64,000 nucleotides of DNA from Halanaerobiales bacterium (GCA_022360715.1 JAKSCG010000050.1:1-64000); one strand, 5' to 3'. Positions 35,992 through 46,956 are shown, numbered from the stretch's first letter. Made by a program: numbers and translations. The notes: a model not told the origin generated them from the letters alone.

Positions 35992-36060
35992 ATCTTATTA
36001 CCTAGCAAAATGCAAAATAAAAACCCCTACTTAAGAGGGGTTATCTTCGATCACTTTGAT
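35992..36060. repeat. Direct repeat, copy 2 (intact gene end plus terminator)
   Basis: The counterpart of 35372-35440, at an offset of 620 bases. Here the segment forms the natural 3' end, stop codon and terminator of the HD-GYP regulator gene, so this is the ancestral position. Confidence 0.95.
36017..36047 (-). terminator. Terminator overlapping the HD-GYP regulator stop codon (copy 2)
   Basis: The same stem as in copy 1; the stop codon lies within the loop and the last codons form one arm. Confidence 0.75.
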
Positions 36061-38328
36061 GAATATTTTAACCAATTCTTCATCAAACTGACTCCCGGAA
36101 TAATTTAAAATCTCCTTAATCGCTTCCTCAGAACTAATCGCTTTTTTATAAGGTCGGTTGTGAGTCATTACGTCATAAGCATCAGCAATCGCCAGGATTC
36201 GAGCCAATAGCGGAATACTTTCACCGATCAGACCCTGGGGATAGCCGCTGCCATCCCAGCATTCATGATGAGAAAGAATGTCTTCGGCGATTGGAGCTGT
36301 TTCGGGAGAAGTTTTAGCAATCCGATAACCTATTTCCGGATGTTTTTTGATCATCGCCCACTGTTCAATTGAGAGCGGACCCGGTTTGTATAAAATATCA
36401 TCCGAGATAGCCAGTAGTCCGATATCATGTAATAAGGCCAGCAAAGAGAGTTCTTCCATTTTGCTTTTAGAAAGCCTTAGTTCTTGACCAATCTTTAATA
36501 CCAGTTGACCAATTCGTTTGCGGTGTCCTTCTGTTTCAAACTTTTTATTCCGCAAACAACTCTCCAGGATCGAAATTATCGAATTGGCCGGATTTTTACT
36601 CTCTTTTAGTTTATTCCGGTACATTCTATCTTCAGCCAATTTTAGCACATCTTCAATTTTTTCATCAGGAATGTTTTTGGTCGCTACCCCTAGTGCTATA
36701 CTCGGTTTAATCGGTTCATTTTCTGCCTCTTCACAGCCAGTTTTAATCCTTTTAACTACTTCATTTGCTGCCTCTACCCCGGTTTTCTGGAGCAGAATCA
36801 TAAACTCATCTCCACCCCACCGGGCAATAATATCTTCCTGCCGGCAGGATTCTTTAATTATCTGAGCCATTTTCTGTAAGAATCGATCCCCTTCTTTATG
36901 TCCAAAAGCGTCATTAACTAATTTTAACCCATTGACATCACCCATGATAATGCTCAGTGGCAACTGCCTTTCCGTATCCAGTCGAACCAACTCTTCATCA
37001 AAGTAATTTCGATTATATAAATCGGTAAGGGGGTCATGAAAGCCAAAATACCATATTTTCTCCTCCGACTTAATCCTTTTTAAAGCAGTAATTGTATGTG
37101 AGATTAAAAGTTCAGCCAGTTCCAGGTCTTCTTCGGAAAAAGCATTAATTTCTTTGGAAATGACCTGAAAAATACCGAATTCATCGATCGGAATACTTAT
37201 AAGTGAACGGAAATAACTTTTAGTAGGTTTAGCGTCATGGTCATCCCTTACATCCTGGACTAAATACGTTCTTTGGTTGCGGTAAGTTTTACCGGCAATA
37301 CCGTCAGTAATCGGCATTGATACGGAAATATGCGAATCTGCTTCCGTCGAATATGCTTTAACTACCAGCAGATCATTCTCAACAATATCAAGTGTACATA
37401 GATAAAATTTCAGTATTTTCTCCGCAGCATCAACCGTTAATTGGTAAACATCTTCTTTAGCTGAGCAAAGATTTATTTTACTGGCGACATGGTGGAGTTG
37501 TTTAATCTTCTTTCGGCTGGCGACCAGACTTCTCTCCAGTCTTTTTTGATGTTCCTCCATTTTTTTTCTTTCCGTAACATCACGGAAAACCAGGACTACC
37601 CCCTCAATTAGCCCATGTTCATCCCAGATCGGAGCCGCACTATCATCAATCGGAATAACCATACCATCCTTTCTTTTCAAGACAGTATGATTAGCCAGCC
37701 CAATGATCATTCCTTTTTCCAAGACTTTACTAACCGGGTTTTCTACCCTTTTCCCATCCAGTTCACTAAAAATATTAAAAATTTCCTCTAGTTTACGCTC
37801 CTTTACTTCTTCCTGCTTCCAACCGGTTAATTCTTCGGCCACCGGATTCATAAATTTTATCTGTCCGAAACAATCGGTTGCAATTACCGCATCGCCGATA
37901 CTTTTAAGAGTTGTGATAAACCAGCGCTGCTTATCTTTATAGATTTGATCCATTCGCCCCTTATATAAAGCTATCTTAATTGTACAAAATAGCTGTTCTT
38001 TTTCAAAAGGCTTAATGATATAACCAAAAGGTTCCGAAAGTTTAGCCCTTTCCAGGCTATTTTGATCAGACAAAGCAGTAACAAAAACGATCGGAACCTC
38101 AAAATTATTTTTTAAAATAATTCCGGTATTTATACCATCCATCTCACCCTCTAGTTTAATATCCATTAAAACAAGATCCGGATTAAGTTCTGCAGTTAAT
38201 CGAATCGCCTCTTCACCTGTATCAGCTTTAGCCGCAACAAGATAGTTCTCTTCTTCCAATAACCGTTGAGTCTTATCCCTGTCCTTACTGCCAGCCTCTA
38301 CTATTAAGATCTTTTTCCTCTCTCCCAA
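36031..38328 (-). CDS. Receiver-PAS-GAF-GGDEF-HD-GYP signalling protein
   Basis: 765 residues that can in principle make and degrade cyclic di-GMP. Domains: receiver (1-120; phospho-acceptor Asp56 in LVLMDIKLEG, Lys106), PAS (about 135-255), GAF (about 285-420), GGDEF with intact RWGGDEF (505-509) and an inhibitory-site RQED five residues before it, then HD-GYP (HDIG near 630; HHECWDGSGYP). The receiver's usual N-terminal acidic pair is only Glu11-Ala12, so phosphorylation may be weak. It stands alone, without a histidine kinase in the window. Its 3' end is the source of the 55-bp direct repeat. Confidence 0.93.
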   Translation of the reverse strand: MGERKKILIVEAGSKDRDKTQRLLEEENYLVAAKADTGEEAIRLTAELNPDLVLMDIKLEGEMDGINTGIILKNNFEVPIVFVTALSDQNSLERAKLSEPFGYIIKPFEKEQLFCTIKIALYKGRMDQIYKDKQRWFITTLKSIGDAVIATDCFGQIKFMNPVAEELTGWKQEEVKERKLEEIFNIFSELDGKRVENPVSKVLEKGMIIGLANHTVLKRKDGMVIPIDDSAAPIWDEHGLIEGVVLVFRDVTERKKMEEHQKRLERSLVASRKKIKQLHHVASKINLCSAKEDVYQLTVDAAEKILKFYLCTLDIVENDLLVVKAYSTEADSHISVSMPITDGIAGKTYRNQRTYLVQDVRDDHDAKPTKSYFRSLISIPIDEFGIFQVISKEINAFSEEDLELAELLISHTITALKRIKSEEKIWYFGFHDPLTDLYNRNYFDEELVRLDTERQLPLSIIMGDVNGLKLVNDAFGHKEGDRFLQKMAQIIKESCRQEDIIARWGGDEFMILLQKTGVEAANEVVKRIKTGCEEAENEPIKPSIALGVATKNIPDEKIEDVLKLAEDRMYRNKLKESKNPANSIISILESCLRNKKFETEGHRKRIGQLVLKIGQELRLSKSKMEELSLLALLHDIGLLAISDDILYKPGPLSIEQWAMIKKHPEIGYRIAKTSPETAPIAEDILSHHECWDGSGYPQGLIGESIPLLARILAIADAYDVMTHNRPYKKAISSEEAIKEILNYSGSQFDEELVKIFIKVIEDNPS

Positions 38329-39581: not shown

Positions 39582-39812
39582 TGCTCCTCCTCCAATTATC
39601 TCGTTTTTACTCGGCCTAATTGACGACTACAATAAATTCAAAATGATTTAAATTATATATTCAAGATTGATATTAAATCTCCTGCCTATATTTTAAATGG
39701 CATTTCCTTCTATTTTAAATAGTTGCCTGGGAGATAAAATAAAGGAATTAATCGAGCAAAGCATAATATAATATAGATATTAAAATACTTTATCTAAAAA
39801 GGAGTGGACAAA

Positions 39813-40448
39813 ATGTGTGGTCGGTATTATCTCCATAGCAGTCTCGACAAGCTGATTAAAAGATACGGTATTAACATCGGACCTGACTTTGACTATTCGC
39901 CGCGCCCGGAAATCTTTCCTTCGGAAAATGCTCCGGTGCTTATCGCTAAAAAAACAAGGGAATTACAGTTGCTAAAATGGGGCTTTATCCCTGTTTTTAG
40001 CAATCGAATAATTATCAACGCCCGGAGTGAAACCCTTGAGCATAAGTCCCTTTTTAAACGATCACTCCGGACAAAAAGGTGCTTGATTCCGGCCAACGGC
40101 TTTTTTGAGTGGAAAAAAGTTGGTCGAAGCAAGATAAAATACCGTATTTCCCCTTATGATCAAGGACTCTTCTCGCTGGCCGGACTCTATGATACCTTTA
40201 TCGACAAAAAGGGTGACCGGATCGAATGCTTTACCATCATAACCGGTCCGGCCGGCGAAAAAATGAGGGATATTCACGAACGAATGCCGGTTATTTTACA
40301 CAAAGAGACGGAAAAATACTGGCTTGAGCAGCACCTTAACGATATCTCTACCGTCAAGGAGTTACTAAAACCCTATCCGGAAGAACTATTATCATTCAGC
40401 AAAGATAATAAAGAATACCCCGGAGATCAGCTCAAACTGGACTTTTGA
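39813..40448 (+). CDS. SRAP domain protein (HMCES/YedK family)
   Basis: Crosslinks to abasic sites in single-stranded DNA through its N-terminal cysteine. The start must be the ATG of MCGRYYLHSS (39813), because removal of Met exposes Cys2; an ATG three codons upstream is not used. NARSET, CLIPANGFFEWKK and the active-site His in HERMPVIL are all present. 211 residues. It is one of the few plus-strand genes. Together with the Y-family polymerase at 46 kb it gives this stretch a DNA-damage-tolerance flavour. Confidence 0.93.
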   Translation: MCGRYYLHSSLDKLIKRYGINIGPDFDYSPRPEIFPSENAPVLIAKKTRELQLLKWGFIPVFSNRIIINARSETLEHKSLFKRSLRTKRCLIPANGFFEWKKVGRSKIKYRISPYDQGLFSLAGLYDTFIDKKGDRIECFTIITGPAGEKMRDIHERMPVILHKETEKYWLEQHLNDISTVKELLKPYPEELLSFSKDNKEYPGDQLKLDF

Positions 40449-40572: not shown

Positions 40573-41349
40573 TTAATCCTCTATACTATCTTCATCTTCC
40601 TCATCTTGTTCATCATCTTCATCGCGATCTATATTATGCTGATCCTGTTTTGCCCTATCCTGATTTTTCTCTCTCCCCTGCTTCCTTCCGCCTTTTTGAT
40701 TTTCCTCTCCGTCTTCTTGTTCTTCCTCATCATCTTGGTCATTTTCATCTTGGTCATCCAGATCTTTGTCTTCATCTTGCTCTAGCTCATCTTCGTCATC
40801 TTCATTTTCTTCATCTTCGTCTTCATCCTTCTCTTCCCTTTCTTCTGCTTCTTCCCGTAACCTTTCCCGCTCCCTAATCGTATTTTCAACCTTCTCCTCT
40901 AAGCTTTCCAGGTTACCTTGATTATTCTGCAACAATTCCGATAGTTCTGCTTGAGCCAGACCTTCTTCCAGTGCTTCATTTATGATTTCAGCAATTTCTT
41001 CCACATCTTTATCGGGCAATCCTACCATAAAATTTTGGACTTCCTGTTTTATGCCGATATTGGAAGATAAAATCTCCAGTTTGATGTATTCTACCGCATC
41101 ATCACCATAATCATTAATAACATGATCAATATTATTTATTAGCTCTTCCTGAACAATTTGGCCGGCATAAATCCCCTCCAGGATAGTATTTAATAGCTCC
41201 TCTTTTTCTTCTTGATCCAGCTCTTCGGCCCGGCTTATCTTCATAGTAAGCTCAGCCACTACCTCATTATCAATACTAAGGGCTTGCATCACCTCTCCCA
41301 TACCGAGCATCACCGAAAAAACCAGTAGCAATAATAAAAATTTTTTCAT
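40573..41349 (-). CDS. Exported protein with Asp/Glu-rich C-terminal tail
   Basis: 258 residues. An N-terminal signal peptide (MKKFLLLLLVFSVMLGMGE) is followed by a helical region of about 135 residues and then, from about residue 165, a low-complexity tail dominated by Asp and Glu with some Gln and Asn. I do not recognise a named family. The tail is shared in style with the FecR protein of the same operon and could bind calcium or other cations, or keep the protein soluble at high salt. The gene follows crp by 81 bases and has a CRP-type site and a possible -10 of its own. Confidence 0.7.
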   Translation of the reverse strand: MKKFLLLLLVFSVMLGMGEVMQALSIDNEVVAELTMKISRAEELDQEEKEELLNTILEGIYAGQIVQEELINNIDHVINDYGDDAVEYIKLEILSSNIGIKQEVQNFMVGLPDKDVEEIAEIINEALEEGLAQAELSELLQNNQGNLESLEEKVENTIRERERLREEAEEREEKDEDEDEENEDDEDELEQDEDKDLDDQDENDQDDEEEQEDGEENQKGGRKQGREKNQDRAKQDQHNIDRDEDDEQDEEDEDSIED

Positions 41350-41418
41350 TAGCAGCTCATCTCCTTTCTTTAATGTTTTAGATTAACCATAGCATAACAT
41401 AAAAAAAAGAAGAAAAGA

Positions 41419-41434
41419 TGTGACAGCCATCACC
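41419..41434 (-). promoter_or_regulatory. Candidate CRP-binding site upstream of the acidic-protein gene
   Basis: On the minus strand GGTGATGGCTGTCACA matches the CRP consensus TGTGA-N6-TCACA at nine of ten positions. It overlaps the crp stop codon. A TATGCT -10 at 41391-41396 would place the site centre near -42, a class II arrangement. Confidence 0.55.
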
Positions 41435-42098
41435 ATCTCGCTAAATTTTTCACGTTTATCTTTCCGCCCGTGCTCTCAATTAACCCGCTGGCTGTCATTT
41501 TATTAATCAATCGGGTGACTGTCTCTCTTGAAGCGCCAATAAATTTGGCCAATTCCTGGTGGGTAATAGTACGTTTTATCACCAGCTCTGTTCTCCCTTT
41601 GGCGCTCACCTCACCAGCCAGTCTCAGCAAGAGTCGCTTTAATCTGGTTTCTGCATCGGAGAAAGCCAGGCCCTCGATCTCCTGGTTAGCCTGACGAAGG
41701 CGATGACTGAGTTCAATAATCATCTTTAGCGCCAGTTCCGGATTATTTTTAATAAATCTGATAAAATCCCCTCTTTCCAAAACAAGCAACTTGCTTTTCC
41801 TAGTAATTACTGCGGTGGCGGAACGGGTTTTCTCTTCAAAAATACCCATTTCTCCAAAAAAATCACCTTTAACCATCATCTCTAAAATAATTTCTTTTCC
41901 TTCCGAAGTAAGTTTAACTATTTTTACCTCGCCGGCCAGAACCGCATAAAAGGCATCGGCCGGGTCTGCTTCCCAAAATAAAGTTTCACCGGCGGAATAA
42001 GTTTTTATGGCGGCAATCTCTTCCAGGATCAGCTGTTGTTCTTTGCTTAATCCTGCAAAAAGAGGAACTTGCGCAAATAGTTGGCTCATCAAATTCAT
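41430..42098 (-). CDS. CRP-type cAMP receptor transcription factor
   Basis: About 222 residues. The cyclic-nucleotide domain has the GEMGIFEEKTRSATAV loop, with the Glu and Arg-Ser pair that contact cAMP in E. coli CRP. The C-terminal helix-turn-helix reads GASRETVTRLINKM; the Arg-Glu-x-x-x-Arg residues that read TGTGA in E. coli CRP are identical. There are no N-terminal cysteines for an Fe-S cluster, so FNR is excluded. ATG and GTG starts cluster at 42098-42104; the ATG is used. It lies downstream of an adenylate cyclase and FecR gene in one operon. Confidence 0.9.
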   Translation of the reverse strand: MNLMSQLFAQVPLFAGLSKEQQLILEEIAAIKTYSAGETLFWEADPADAFYAVLAGEVKIVKLTSEGKEIILEMMVKGDFFGEMGIFEEKTRSATAVITRKSKLLVLERGDFIRFIKNNPELALKMIIELSHRLRQANQEIEGLAFSDAETRLKRLLLRLAGEVSAKGRTELVIKRTITHQELAKFIGASRETVTRLINKMTASGLIESTGGKINVKNLARW

Positions 42099-42128
42099 CA
42101 CCACACCCTTGATAATTTTTAAGCAAGG

Positions 42129-43124
42129 TTACTCATCATCATCATCCTGATTTTGTGACCCTTTTCCTTTTTGTTTCCCGACCGCTCGTCCCCTGGCATT
42201 GTCTCCATTTTCTTCTGTATCACCAGTATAATCTCGTTGATCCCGTTCGTCTTCATCTTCGGAATCTTGATCCCACTCGTCTTCTTCCTCATCTTCATAG
42301 TCTTGATCAGGATCATCCTCATCTTCCTTCTCGTAATCTTGATCATCCTCATCTTCTTCTTCGCCATAATCATTATCTTTTTGTTCTTCTCGTTCTTCTT
42401 CATTTTCTTCTACCTGATCATCTTGATCCGGTTCTTCCGATAAACTACTATTACTATCCTCTTCTGACTTATCCCGGGCGGTCGCTGCTATCCAGTCTTT
42501 AACCCCTTTTTCTTCCCACAGTTTCAGCTGTTCACGGCTGATCGTCTTATCTTCGATCATTGTTCCATCAACAATCCCCATTTCATTGCCGGCGATAATT
42601 TTCCGACTGGTACTCGCTGCATCCCTTACTTCGACCTTTCCCTCTTTTACGGTTACAATTGTTTGATTATTAATAAAGGCGACCGAGAAAAGGGTGCCTC
42701 TAACCCCAGCCACAGCAGAAGGTGTCACTACCTCAAACCTGGTTAGCTCTTGCCAGGCATCTTTAACCCTGGCCCAGAGTTGACCGGCCTTTAATTCCAG
42801 CGAATAGGCCGGACCTTTTTCAGTAACCGTTCTTTGTCCAATTATAACCCTGCTTTGCTGGCCAATTTTGACATAAATATCCTGGACAAAAGATATTTCC
42901 AGACTACTATCAACACCGGTTTTAATAATATCTCCGACCATTAATCGATCATTAGCCGTTAATTGTTGCCACTGGCTAAATTTGAGCCAATCAAAGAAGA
43001 TGCTTTTTTTTATTTTTCTTTCTACCCTTCCCTCAATACCGGTTATGGTAATCGTATTATCGGCGCTAGCCATAACCTGGACCATTATACTTAAAATAAT
43101 TAAAACAATTAAAAACCTCTTCAC
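42129..43124 (-). CDS. Exported FecR-domain protein with Asp/Glu-rich tail
   Basis: 331 residues: a signal peptide (MKRFLIVLIILSIMVQVMASA), a FecR domain (about 60-175, with VGDIIKTGVDSSLEISF, LKAGQLWARV and VVTPSAVAGVRGTLFSV), then from about residue 220 a very acidic repeat-like tail ending DDDDE. Free-standing periplasmic FecR domains of this kind often accompany CHASE2 sensors; the job is unknown, perhaps ligand capture. It begins inside the cyclase stop codon (ATGA, four-base overlap), so translation is coupled. Confidence 0.85.
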   Translation of the reverse strand: MKRFLIVLIILSIMVQVMASADNTITITGIEGRVERKIKKSIFFDWLKFSQWQQLTANDRLMVGDIIKTGVDSSLEISFVQDIYVKIGQQSRVIIGQRTVTEKGPAYSLELKAGQLWARVKDAWQELTRFEVVTPSAVAGVRGTLFSVAFINNQTIVTVKEGKVEVRDAASTSRKIIAGNEMGIVDGTMIEDKTISREQLKLWEEKGVKDWIAATARDKSEEDSNSSLSEEPDQDDQVEENEEEREEQKDNDYGEEEDEDDQDYEKEDEDDPDQDYEDEEEDEWDQDSEDEDERDQRDYTGDTEENGDNARGRAVGKQKGKGSQNQDDDDE

Positions 43125-44836
43125 CTTTTTTCCTCTCCTTCGCTCAGACGATAAAGGCAGCTAGGCTGTTTACTTCCTTTCAATTCAACCCTTTCTTCTC
43201 GCCAGTTCATCTTTTTTAGTTTACTGTTTAAACCGCGGTAGGTCTCTTCACCAATAATTATTTCACCTGGGCCGGCTATCTCAACAAAGCGAAAGGCTTT
43301 ATTTACCGTATCGCCAATAGCCGTATACTCCATCCTCCGCTCAGTCCCCAGATTACCCACCACTACCGGCCCTGTATTTATCGCAATTCCAATTTTGAAA
43401 GGTAATACTAACTCCCTGATCTTTAAAGCGGCTTTCAGACTCTGTTCCCGGTGTTCGGGAAGAGAAAGGGGAGCTCCGAACACAGCCATCAAGCCATCGC
43501 CCAGATATTTATCCAGTGTACCTTTATGTTGGAAAATCACCGCGGTTAGCAGTTCAAAGGTTGCATTTAATTCACGGACAACTATCTCAGTGCTTTCATT
43601 CTCCGCATAGGCTGTAAAACCGCGAATATCCAATAAAAAAACACTTAGTTCAATCCTCTCTCCCCCCAGTTCGAGGGCAGACTTACGGGTAATTAATTGC
43701 TGCATTACGTCATCAGAGATATACCGTCCGAAGATATTGATTATTCTCCTTCTTTCCCTTTCACTGCTTCGATACCAGTACAATAAACTAATCGTAAAAA
43801 GAACGGCTCCGGCAATTACCGGGGTAACATAGGGTAAAATGTAATTATAGCTATAAAAAAGATAAATACTGAAGACTATATAAATGAACAAAATAAATCC
43901 GACCATTTTACCGGAAATCCGCGGCGGATAGTTCAAAATCACTTCAGTAAGAGCCAACAAGATTAACAGGATTATTAACAAATTAAGTCTCCCCGGCAGT
44001 TGCCTGAGGAAATTTCTATGGATGATATTATATAAAGCCTGTCCGTGCAATTCAACCCCGCTCATATAACCATAACGGGAAAAAGGAGTCATATACCGGT
44101 CGCCGAGACCGCTGATATCAGTACCGAGCAGGACAATCTTATTTTCAAAAAAACCCGGGAGATAATTACCGGCCAATAGATCGAGTAATGAAATATAGGG
44201 AACTGTCCCGGGAGGGCCGATAAAATTCAACCAAAGATTTTTTTCTTTTAATTCGGCTACTCCGATCCCGGCTCGGCTGGCAAGTTGATAACTGAAAGCG
44301 GGAAATTCCTCTCCTGTTTTAAAGTAAAGGGGGAGTTGGCGAATAATACCATCCCGCCCGGGAATAAAATTAATATGACCTAGAAAAACCTGCTCACTGT
44401 AAAGCAAAATCGGTTTCCTGATATCTATTACTTCTATTTCCTGATAATTAATACCCCGGATCATTTTCAAGTTAAATTCGACCGGAAGTACGATGTTATG
44501 ATAGCGGGATAAGGCCTCAGCTAATTTGTTATCTTCAAAAATGTCCCGGGACTCAGCAAAGATTATATCAACCCCGATCGCTTTGACCCCTTCGTCCTCC
44601 AGCATTCGGATTACCCGGGCATAAACTCCTCTTGGCAGAGGCCATTGCCCTAGCTGACTTAAAGCATCGTCATCGACCTTAATATTTATTATTTCGCTAA
44701 CCTGTGTCGGTGCGAACACATAGCGGAACAACTGCAGTAAATCAATCAATTTATTCTCCAGAAAAATAAACAGATTGAAGTAATACAAGATAAGTATCGT
44801 CAATATAACTAACAAAAGCAATAATCTTTTCCCCAT
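43121..44836 (-). CDS. CHASE2-domain class III adenylate cyclase
   Basis: About 571 residues. After a first membrane helix comes an extracytoplasmic CHASE2 sensor (about 35-285, including GVKAIGVDIIFAES and LLGTDISGLGDRYMTP), then three membrane helices (about 290-355) and a catalytic domain. The metal Asp residues are in LLDIRGFT and GDGLMAVFGAP. DKYLGDG supplies the adenine-selecting Lys and AIGDTVNKAFRF the Asp and the transition-state Asn/Arg, so the product should be cAMP. The ATG at 44836 is used, with GGGGAAG upstream; a GTG two codons earlier is possible. It heads an operon with FecR, CRP and an acidic exported protein. Confidence 0.93.
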   Translation of the reverse strand: MGKRLLLLLVILTILILYYFNLFIFLENKLIDLLQLFRYVFAPTQVSEIINIKVDDDALSQLGQWPLPRGVYARVIRMLEDEGVKAIGVDIIFAESRDIFEDNKLAEALSRYHNIVLPVEFNLKMIRGINYQEIEVIDIRKPILLYSEQVFLGHINFIPGRDGIIRQLPLYFKTGEEFPAFSYQLASRAGIGVAELKEKNLWLNFIGPPGTVPYISLLDLLAGNYLPGFFENKIVLLGTDISGLGDRYMTPFSRYGYMSGVELHGQALYNIIHRNFLRQLPGRLNLLIILLILLALTEVILNYPPRISGKMVGFILFIYIVFSIYLFYSYNYILPYVTPVIAGAVLFTISLLYWYRSSERERRRIINIFGRYISDDVMQQLITRKSALELGGERIELSVFLLDIRGFTAYAENESTEIVVRELNATFELLTAVIFQHKGTLDKYLGDGLMAVFGAPLSLPEHREQSLKAALKIRELVLPFKIGIAINTGPVVVGNLGTERRMEYTAIGDTVNKAFRFVEIAGPGEIIIGEETYRGLNSKLKKMNWREERVELKGSKQPSCLYRLSEGEEKR

Positions 44837-44855
44837 CGACACTTCCCCTGATTAA

Positions 44856-44884
44856 AGTATACCATCCCCTAAAGCCCTGTTCAA
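44856..44884 (-). promoter_or_regulatory. Sigma-A promoter of the cAMP operon
   Basis: On the minus strand TTGAAC and TATACT are 17 bases apart. The predicted leader is only about 13 bases, just enough for the ribosome binding site. Confidence 0.75.
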
Positions 44885-45659: not shown

Positions 45660-46925
45660 TTAAGAACCATGTCCACCAATAGTGGTTCTCATCCTGTTCA
45701 AAATACTACCTGATTTCAAGCTCCTCCCGTAAAAAAGGGCTTGATGACCATATTTGTCCTGTAAAAGATCTTTTGTTTGATTAACTTTTGCTTCAGGCAA
45801 AGAATTATTGAACAGGCTATAGTGGATGGAAGCATCAGCAAGCAGATTACTTAAGGCCAGATTAACCCGTCTGACGATTTGCCCTTGATAATTTTCGGCC
45901 AAAAGTTCCAGTGAAGTTCGATATAGAACAAAAGGGGAATTAGTATAATTGCTCAAAGTACGTTGCGCATAGAATCCCTTACTCTCTTGAGCATGACTGT
46001 AACCTATGCCCAGACTGACTGTTTTTCCGGCCAGCCCGTTTTTGCGAACCCGATGACTGACTTCATCACATAATTCAAAAATTACGGTTTTAATTTCTTC
46101 TTCTTTCCCATAATCCCTCAGCAAGGTTATCCCCCTGGAAATACTCTTGGCCTGATCATTATGCTCATTCCCCCCCGGTTTTGACAGATCGATTCCCCAG
46201 GCATGATAATAAAGTTGATTACCGATAATCCCAAAATTTTTTTCCAGATATTCCAAAGGAAGATGAGCCAGTTGGCCGACCGTTCGGACACCAATTCGTT
46301 TAAAACGCTTGGCCAGTCTGCGACCAATCCCCCAGCAGTCAATCAATTTAACCGGCCATAGTTTTTCCGGTACATCGTGATAAGTCCACTCAGCCAATCC
46401 TTTTTTCTTTCCTTCGATGTCCATAGCGACCTTGGCCAGAAACATGTTCGGAGCCAGACCCATGCTTGACGGTAAACCAAATTTTTGGACCAACCCTTTT
46501 TTTATCTGCAAGGCCGTTTGGCCGGGATTCCCGAAAAGACGTTCAGTACCGTCAAGTTGAAGCCAGGATTCATCAATAGAGTAAACATAGATGGCAGTTA
46601 ACGGAACAAAGTTATTAAAAAAACGAGTAATCGCCACCGATCTTTCCAGATAAAGCCCCATTCGGGCATCTATTATTTTGATCTCCGGCACCGGTGGGAT
46701 TTCATACAACCTGCTCCCTGTTTTAATTCCGTATTTTCCTTTTAGAGTTGGTGAAGCAGCCAGCACCACCGAACCGGTTCTGCTTTGATCACCGACCACG
46801 GCCAGACAGACCTTAAGGGGATCAAAACCTCGGGACACTGCTTCAATACTGGCAAAGAAAGATTTCATATCAATACAAAGAATATGGTTGTGGGGAAATT
46901 GTTGATAATTAACCGGAGTCTCCAT
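45660..46925 (-). CDS. Y-family DNA polymerase (UvrX/YqjW-like)
   Basis: 421 residues. Catalytic metal residues are in CIDMKSFFASIEA and YSIDESWLQLDG. PNMFLAKVAMDIEGKK, WGIGRRLAKRFKRIG and the little-finger region follow. The combination resembles UvrX/YqjW translesion polymerases rather than DinB. The start ATG (46925) has GAGGAGGGG upstream. A weak LexA-like site lies just before it. Confidence 0.9.
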   Translation of the reverse strand: METPVNYQQFPHNHILCIDMKSFFASIEAVSRGFDPLKVCLAVVGDQSRTGSVVLAASPTLKGKYGIKTGSRLYEIPPVPEIKIIDARMGLYLERSVAITRFFNNFVPLTAIYVYSIDESWLQLDGTERLFGNPGQTALQIKKGLVQKFGLPSSMGLAPNMFLAKVAMDIEGKKKGLAEWTYHDVPEKLWPVKLIDCWGIGRRLAKRFKRIGVRTVGQLAHLPLEYLEKNFGIIGNQLYYHAWGIDLSKPGGNEHNDQAKSISRGITLLRDYGKEEEIKTVIFELCDEVSHRVRKNGLAGKTVSLGIGYSHAQESKGFYAQRTLSNYTNSPFVLYRTSLELLAENYQGQIVRRVNLALSNLLADASIHYSLFNNSLPEAKVNQTKDLLQDKYGHQALFYGRSLKSGSILNRMRTTIGGHGS

Positions 46926-46942
46926 AACTCCCCTCCTCAAAA

Positions 46943-46956
46943 CGAACAATTGTATG
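46943..46956 (-). promoter_or_regulatory. Weak LexA/SOS-box-like site upstream of the Y-family polymerase
   Basis: CGAACAATTGTATG on the plus strand matches the Firmicute SOS box CGAAC-N4-GTTCG at eight of ten positions. The second half-site is poor. Confidence 0.25.

Follow-up and report, generated by a model that had tools for sequence, protein, structure and literature searches.

Among the systems described so far, the nearest in design to the locus analysed here would be, by analogy, the tested CyaD1-Clr-SMc02177(FecR)-SMc02178 system of Sinorhizobium meliloti, in which SMc02178 is exported to the periplasm and is a direct target of Clr (PMC5498481), and which has the outer-membrane receptor NsrA upstream (PMC7529298). 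In Campylobacterota, a CHASE2 cyclase gene is clustered with genes for a FecR-domain protein, a phosphodiesterase and a TPR protein, with no CRP gene named (PMC9239204). The CHASE2-FecR pairing recurs in the BiofilmReg operon of Burkholderia, where a CHASE2 histidine kinase accompanies a LysM-FecR protein and the output is a two-component system rather than cAMP (PMC5192318). The signals perceived by CHASE2 domains were not known as of PMC5192318, and it is unsettled whether cAMP signalling is present at all in many Firmicutes (PMC5217690). Our literature searches found no report on CHASE2 cyclases in Firmicutes and none on a cAMP receptor in Halanaerobiales. Against a background of sparse documentation of cAMP signalling in its phylum, the locus described below presents a gene set and a putative switch that are conserved among related species. 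Since sensor, enzyme, receptor, DNA site and output would all lie together there, and since variants lacking some of these parts occur naturally, the locus makes both questions testable.

The locus lies in a 64,000-nucleotide stretch of DNA from a Halanaerobiales bacterium (hereafter the window), and consists of four genes in a row, all on the minus strand, encoding a cyclase, a FecR-domain protein, a CRP-family regulator and an acidic exported protein, as established from the window ORFs and Pfam. The first-pass annotation had assigned the host to the spore-forming Firmicutes, a label that was corrected to the order Halanaerobiales, whose members are two-membraned and have LPS outer membranes (PMC5007114), so that a periplasm is available for the exported FecR protein. 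As in S. meliloti, the genes for a CHASE2 cyclase, a CRP-like putative cAMP receptor, an exported FecR protein and an exported candidate target of the CRP are neighbours; unlike in S. meliloti, crp is part of the cyclase operon, and the predicted target lies immediately downstream of it. Additionally, the Clr box is TGTT-N8-AACA, whereas the site found here is TGTGA-N6-TCACA, and S. meliloti has the receptor NsrA and many other cyclases. The window genome (4.03 Mb, 92% complete) encodes no class III cyclase other than that of this locus. In contrast to the Campylobacterota cluster, no phosphodiesterase or TPR gene lies by the cyclase. The likeness to CyaD1/Clr suggests, by analogy, a CHASE2-FecR-cAMP module that is old or repeatedly assembled in two-membraned bacteria. 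Pairs of CHASE2 cyclase and FecR are widespread (see also PMC9239204); in a genome scan, they were found at 36 of 80 loci (L139 of these in the class), and a CRP was found near the CHASE2 cyclase at seven of the 80, at least two of which are long fusions without a CRP HTH. Because CRP is rare beside CHASE2-FecR pairs, the Halanaerobiia form, in which the operon includes crp and the gene after it has a putative CRP box, represents a distinct variant.

A sigma-70-type promoter sequence, TTGAAC-17-TATACT with TG before the -10 (44856..44884, minus strand), matches 9 of 12 consensus positions and lies 14 bp upstream of the first start codon. The first-pass annotation had described one operon with a clear promoter; the gene set was upheld, but "clear" was an overstatement, because matches of this type are common by chance (16 found versus 10.1 expected in shuffles). 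The first gene (43121..44842, minus strand, with an alternative ATG start at 44836) encodes a protein of 573 aa combining a CHASE2 sensor (PF05226, 168 bits) with a class III nucleotide cyclase domain (PF00211, Guanylate_cyc, 69 bits). As had been claimed, the protein carries each of the six class III residues, namely the metal-binding D405 and D449, the substrate residues K445 and T507, and the transition-state residues N514 and R518. The K445/T507 pair is of the adenylyl type, which predicts ATP as the substrate. The FecR-domain protein that follows (42129..43124, minus strand; 331 aa; PF04773, 53 bits) has a hydrophobic N-terminus and an acidic tail, is predicted to be exported and is a conserved partner; its gene overlaps the cyclase gene by 4 nt and is separated from crp by 24 nt. 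A FecI/FecR/FecA ECF sigma system was considered and rejected, since the neighbours in the window are the cyclase, CRP, acidic protein, SRAP and HD-domain genes and include neither an ECF sigma gene nor one for a TonB receptor. The SRAP-family gene (39804-40448) and a Y-family DNA polymerase-like gene, read by eye (45660-46949), flank the cassette, and a c-di-GMP-type response regulator with PAS, GAF, GGDEF and HD_5 domains is encoded close to it (36031-38328). In relatives, a CcdA-like and thioredoxin-like pair and an M18/M42-like peptidase are repeated neighbours of the cassette (L062, L063, L064, L071, L072), and these are absent at the window locus.

This cyclase type was found in 22 genomes of the class, with the cyclase-FecR-CRP order kept in 17 and CRP absent in four; in the remaining genome, G040, the locus is at a contig end. 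In the four CRP-less genomes (G013, G016, G019 and G022, the last from the window's own order), the first metal Asp is replaced by Glu and the Thr, Asn and Arg positions are lost, which indicates that cyclase activity and CRP go together. Since the four belong to one genus, catalytic decay and CRP loss probably represent a single event. The decayed CHASE2 proteins (L071, L072, L084 and L085, in G022, G019, G013 and G016, respectively) have retained the FecR gene in two cases, and are possibly kept as sensors. Among the CRP-linked cyclases, three (G001, G025 and G049) are missing the equivalent of the transition-state R518, and some of these enzymes may therefore be weak.

The regulator (41430..42104, minus strand; 224 aa) contains a cyclic nucleotide-binding domain (PF00027, cNMP_binding, 87 bits) and a Crp-type HTH (PF13545, HTH_Crp_2, 56 bits), and it was verified that it carries E72/R82/S83 and the recognition helix RETVTR, corresponding to the E. 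coli-type pocket (E ... RS) and helix of the earlier claim. The likeness to class II activation by E. coli cAMP-CRP comprises this pocket, the recognition residues R180/E181/R185, the DNA motif and the -41.5 position. However, relative to E. coli CRP, one residue is missing from the loop, and A/N replace the base-contacting T127/S128, a difference that bears on ligand choice more than on family membership because other CRPs vary there. The protein also scores 116 bits against the E. coli CRP orthologue model (NCBIfam NF008732), whose equivalog cut-off is 266, and was not assigned to it. E72/R82/S83 are kept in all 17 cyclase-linked CRPs examined (16 from the class and one, G059, from another class), whereas 38 of the 39 unlinked paralogs compared, which are the better-scoring ones rather than a full census, have YP, HP or a similar pair in place of R-S. 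The lone unlinked paralog keeping the residues belongs to G046, a genome in which another CHASE2 cyclase is encoded. Phylogenetically, the linked CRPs, the G046 protein and E. coli CRP form one group separate from the paralogs, although the fork joining them is weak by SH-aLRT (96/47). The window genome additionally encodes a paralog of the YP type, whose helix reads RETVSR. HcpR shares with the cassette CRP both the CRP/FNR fold and the TGTGA-N6-TCACA motif (PMC1274295, PMC5701242); nevertheless, an HcpR identity was rejected for the cassette protein, which is separate from the YP-type paralogs (themselves presumed to be HcpR) and retains the cAMP-phosphate residues. Judged by these residues, the linked CRP is of the cAMP type.

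TrmD was considered as a possible witness of cAMP, since the Leu-type enzyme, typical of cyclase-free Firmicutes, is the one to which cAMP binds in S. aureus (PMC5217690). The window genome has Leu at the Tyr-86 position, as does its lineage, but the residue, read by a script that missed eight genomes, most of which were checked by eye, follows family more closely than cassette. Therefore, co-evolution of TrmD was rejected as a witness, and the test is weakly negative for the window lineage.

The palindrome GGTGATGGCTGTCACA (41419..41434, minus strand) matches 9 of 10 consensus bases and overlaps the stop codon of crp, from which the acidic-protein gene is 80 nt away. No other TGTGA-N6-TCACA match in the window has fewer than two mismatches. 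In E. coli CRP, the helix residues read TGTGA, and class II sites are centred at about -41.5. An extended -10, TGT-TATGCT (41391..41399, minus strand), starts 23 bases after the palindrome and sets its centre at about -42.5, with the hexamer assigned to -12 to -7 and +1 deduced from it; the first-pass reading of a single good site, centred near -42, was accordingly reproduced. The whole-genome motif scan that it had proposed returned 38 sites that differ from the motif at no more than one position, versus 37 for the reversed-pattern control. The site is thus insignificant by itself and gains significance through its conservation, and a global CRP regulon was rejected in this genome for the same lack of enrichment. 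Of the other 37 sites, a mechanical ORF call places 12 between genes, and one or two of these have promoter geometry, including C77:38831, before a ferredoxin-like gene, with TATAAT at class II spacing. An autoregulatory CRP site before the cyclase was rejected, the best match there being 7/10.

In three other genomes (G001, G012 and G025), crp is likewise followed by a homolog of the acidic-protein gene, and the crp end carries the palindromes GGTGACGGCCATCACA, GGTGATGAAGGTCACT and TGTGACAATCATTACA, respectively. There, the hexamer of an extended -10 (TGN plus hexamer) lies 22 bases past the palindrome, giving a centre of -41.5, versus 23 bases and -42.5 in the window, so that a class II promoter is predicted in all four on sequence grounds. 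In shuffles, score and geometry together gave P values of 0.0002 for the window and 0.0002, 0.011 and 0.0007 for the three relatives. In a ranking of all 13,312 palindromes given by 1024 half-sites x 13 spacers, the top place is shared by TGTGA-N6-TCACA and two frame-shifted versions of it. In the class as a whole, GTGA-N6-TCAC-N19/20-TGNNANNNT occurs 60 times in 59 genomes, versus 12 for the reversed control (totals summed by hand), and this combination of site and -10 spacing is a real promoter type.

Such sites are found beyond the cassette. Several precede genes named by eye as formate/nitrite transporter-like and sulfite-reductase-like, or adjoin YP-type paralogs, also in cassette-free genomes. 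Class II-spaced TGTGA-N6-TCAC sites were also observed in Halanaerobiia at L266, L091, L261-L263, L274 and L275, including before 400-aa genes, and are probably an HcpR-type regulon. In relatives, further sites stand ahead of other genes. In G038 and G050 (L067:10155, L068:6868, L264:4223), palindromes precede a histidine-kinase-like gene heading a pilus-like (tad) cluster beside the cassette, and G038 has another before a prepilin-peptidase-like gene, which suggests, by position, that these genes could be other outputs of the same cassette. In G012, a polysaccharide-export-like gene, a possible second target, is preceded by a perfect TGTGACCCAGGTCACA (L286:3055), which is followed after about 22 bases by TATAAT. 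The circuit had been called self-contained in the first pass, which agrees with the one or two other promoter-geometry sites of the window genome but not with these relatives.

The points counting against a cAMP circuit are the shared HcpR motif, the YP-type paralog, G008, the Leu of TrmD, the A/N at 127/128 and the Arg losses in linked relatives, and they bear on different alternatives. It is conceivable, though in our judgement unlikely, that the site is real but read by an HcpR/FNR-type paralog responding to redox or nitrosative stress, alone or with the cassette CRP, and that the targets of the cyclase-CRP pair lie elsewhere. The motif alone does not identify the binding protein, because HcpR reads the same one, the window genome contains a YP-type paralog, and class II sites of this kind precede the transporter-like and sulfite-reductase-like genes mentioned above. 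Moreover, G008, an order relative that is 95% complete and without class III cyclase, encodes a homolog of the acidic protein whose gene is preceded by a 9/10 site, TATAAT being at offset 23; either another regulator acts there or the site is a relic. However, in the window and three relatives the site falls within the cassette, between crp and the acidic-protein gene, and its central bases are mostly GTGAYG..., unlike the GTGAG type beside the paralogs. Furthermore, G002, a close relative with both a YP-type paralog and the cassette, has neither the acidic-protein gene nor a crp-end site, its crp keeping the Trp codon and ending in TAG.

That the palindrome is a functionless chance match appears very improbable. 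Single sites of this quality do occur at chance frequency in the genome, and Trp-TGA codons account for the left half of the palindrome in three species; the right half is not accounted for, the codon explanation fails in G025, whose site falls within the reading frame and is independent of it, and position and spacing are conserved in four genomes whose crp genes are only 38-53% identical. Somewhat less remote, but still improbable, is the reading in which the cassette is a cyclic-nucleotide circuit but the messenger is cGMP or another nucleotide, or in which the cyclase works constitutively or has next to no activity and CRP acts mainly ligand-free. It would accommodate the A/N pair, a TrmD of the cAMP-sensitive type, the loss of the Arg518 equivalent in some linked cyclases and the fact that S. 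meliloti Clr is also activated by cGMP (PMC10127613), but it is opposed by the adenylyl-type K445/T507 pair, the complete catalytic residues of the window cyclase and the strict retention of E72/R82/S83.

We therefore regard as likely a one-locus, envelope-to-gene cAMP circuit of Halanaerobiales. In such a circuit, an extracytoplasmic cue sensed by CHASE2, probably jointly with the exported FecR protein, would turn the cyclase on, and the resulting cAMP would load the CRP of the same operon. cAMP-CRP would then bind the palindrome that overlaps the crp stop codon and, as a class II activator beside the extended -10 rather than as a repressor, would bring about expression of the acidic exported protein. 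More tentatively, the circuit might be a private, nearly single-output cAMP line, leading from a CHASE2/FecR sensor to one acidic envelope protein, in contrast to the global role of E. coli CRP, with activity, CRP and site kept or lost jointly. The route from CHASE2/FecR through cAMP to CRP, as proposed in the first-pass annotation, is plausible and better supported than it was there, in part: the transcription unit, the pocket and the class II-spaced site speak for it, while its exclusivity is weakened by the HcpR motif and by the cyclase-free G008 site.

The presumed output is a protein of 258 aa (40573..41349, minus strand) with a signal peptide, a helical domain and an Asp/Glu-rich tail, and the conserved predicted site before its gene is consistent with a direct CRP target. 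It had no sequence match in Pfam, NCBIfam or PDB and no fold match, and hits at E values of 0.0005-1 were dismissed as noise from helical or low-complexity sequence. Following the signal peptide is a conserved domain (30-37% identity in the N-terminal part) that is predicted to be all-helical, although only one of five single-sequence models was confident, and the second half forms the low-complexity tail, for which cation binding would be a guess. Proteins weakly similar to it, without CRP site or cassette, are encoded in Halanaerobium-like genomes (L271:3649-4161, L272:3633-4190); they are exported and very acidic, with 34-39% Asp+Glu.
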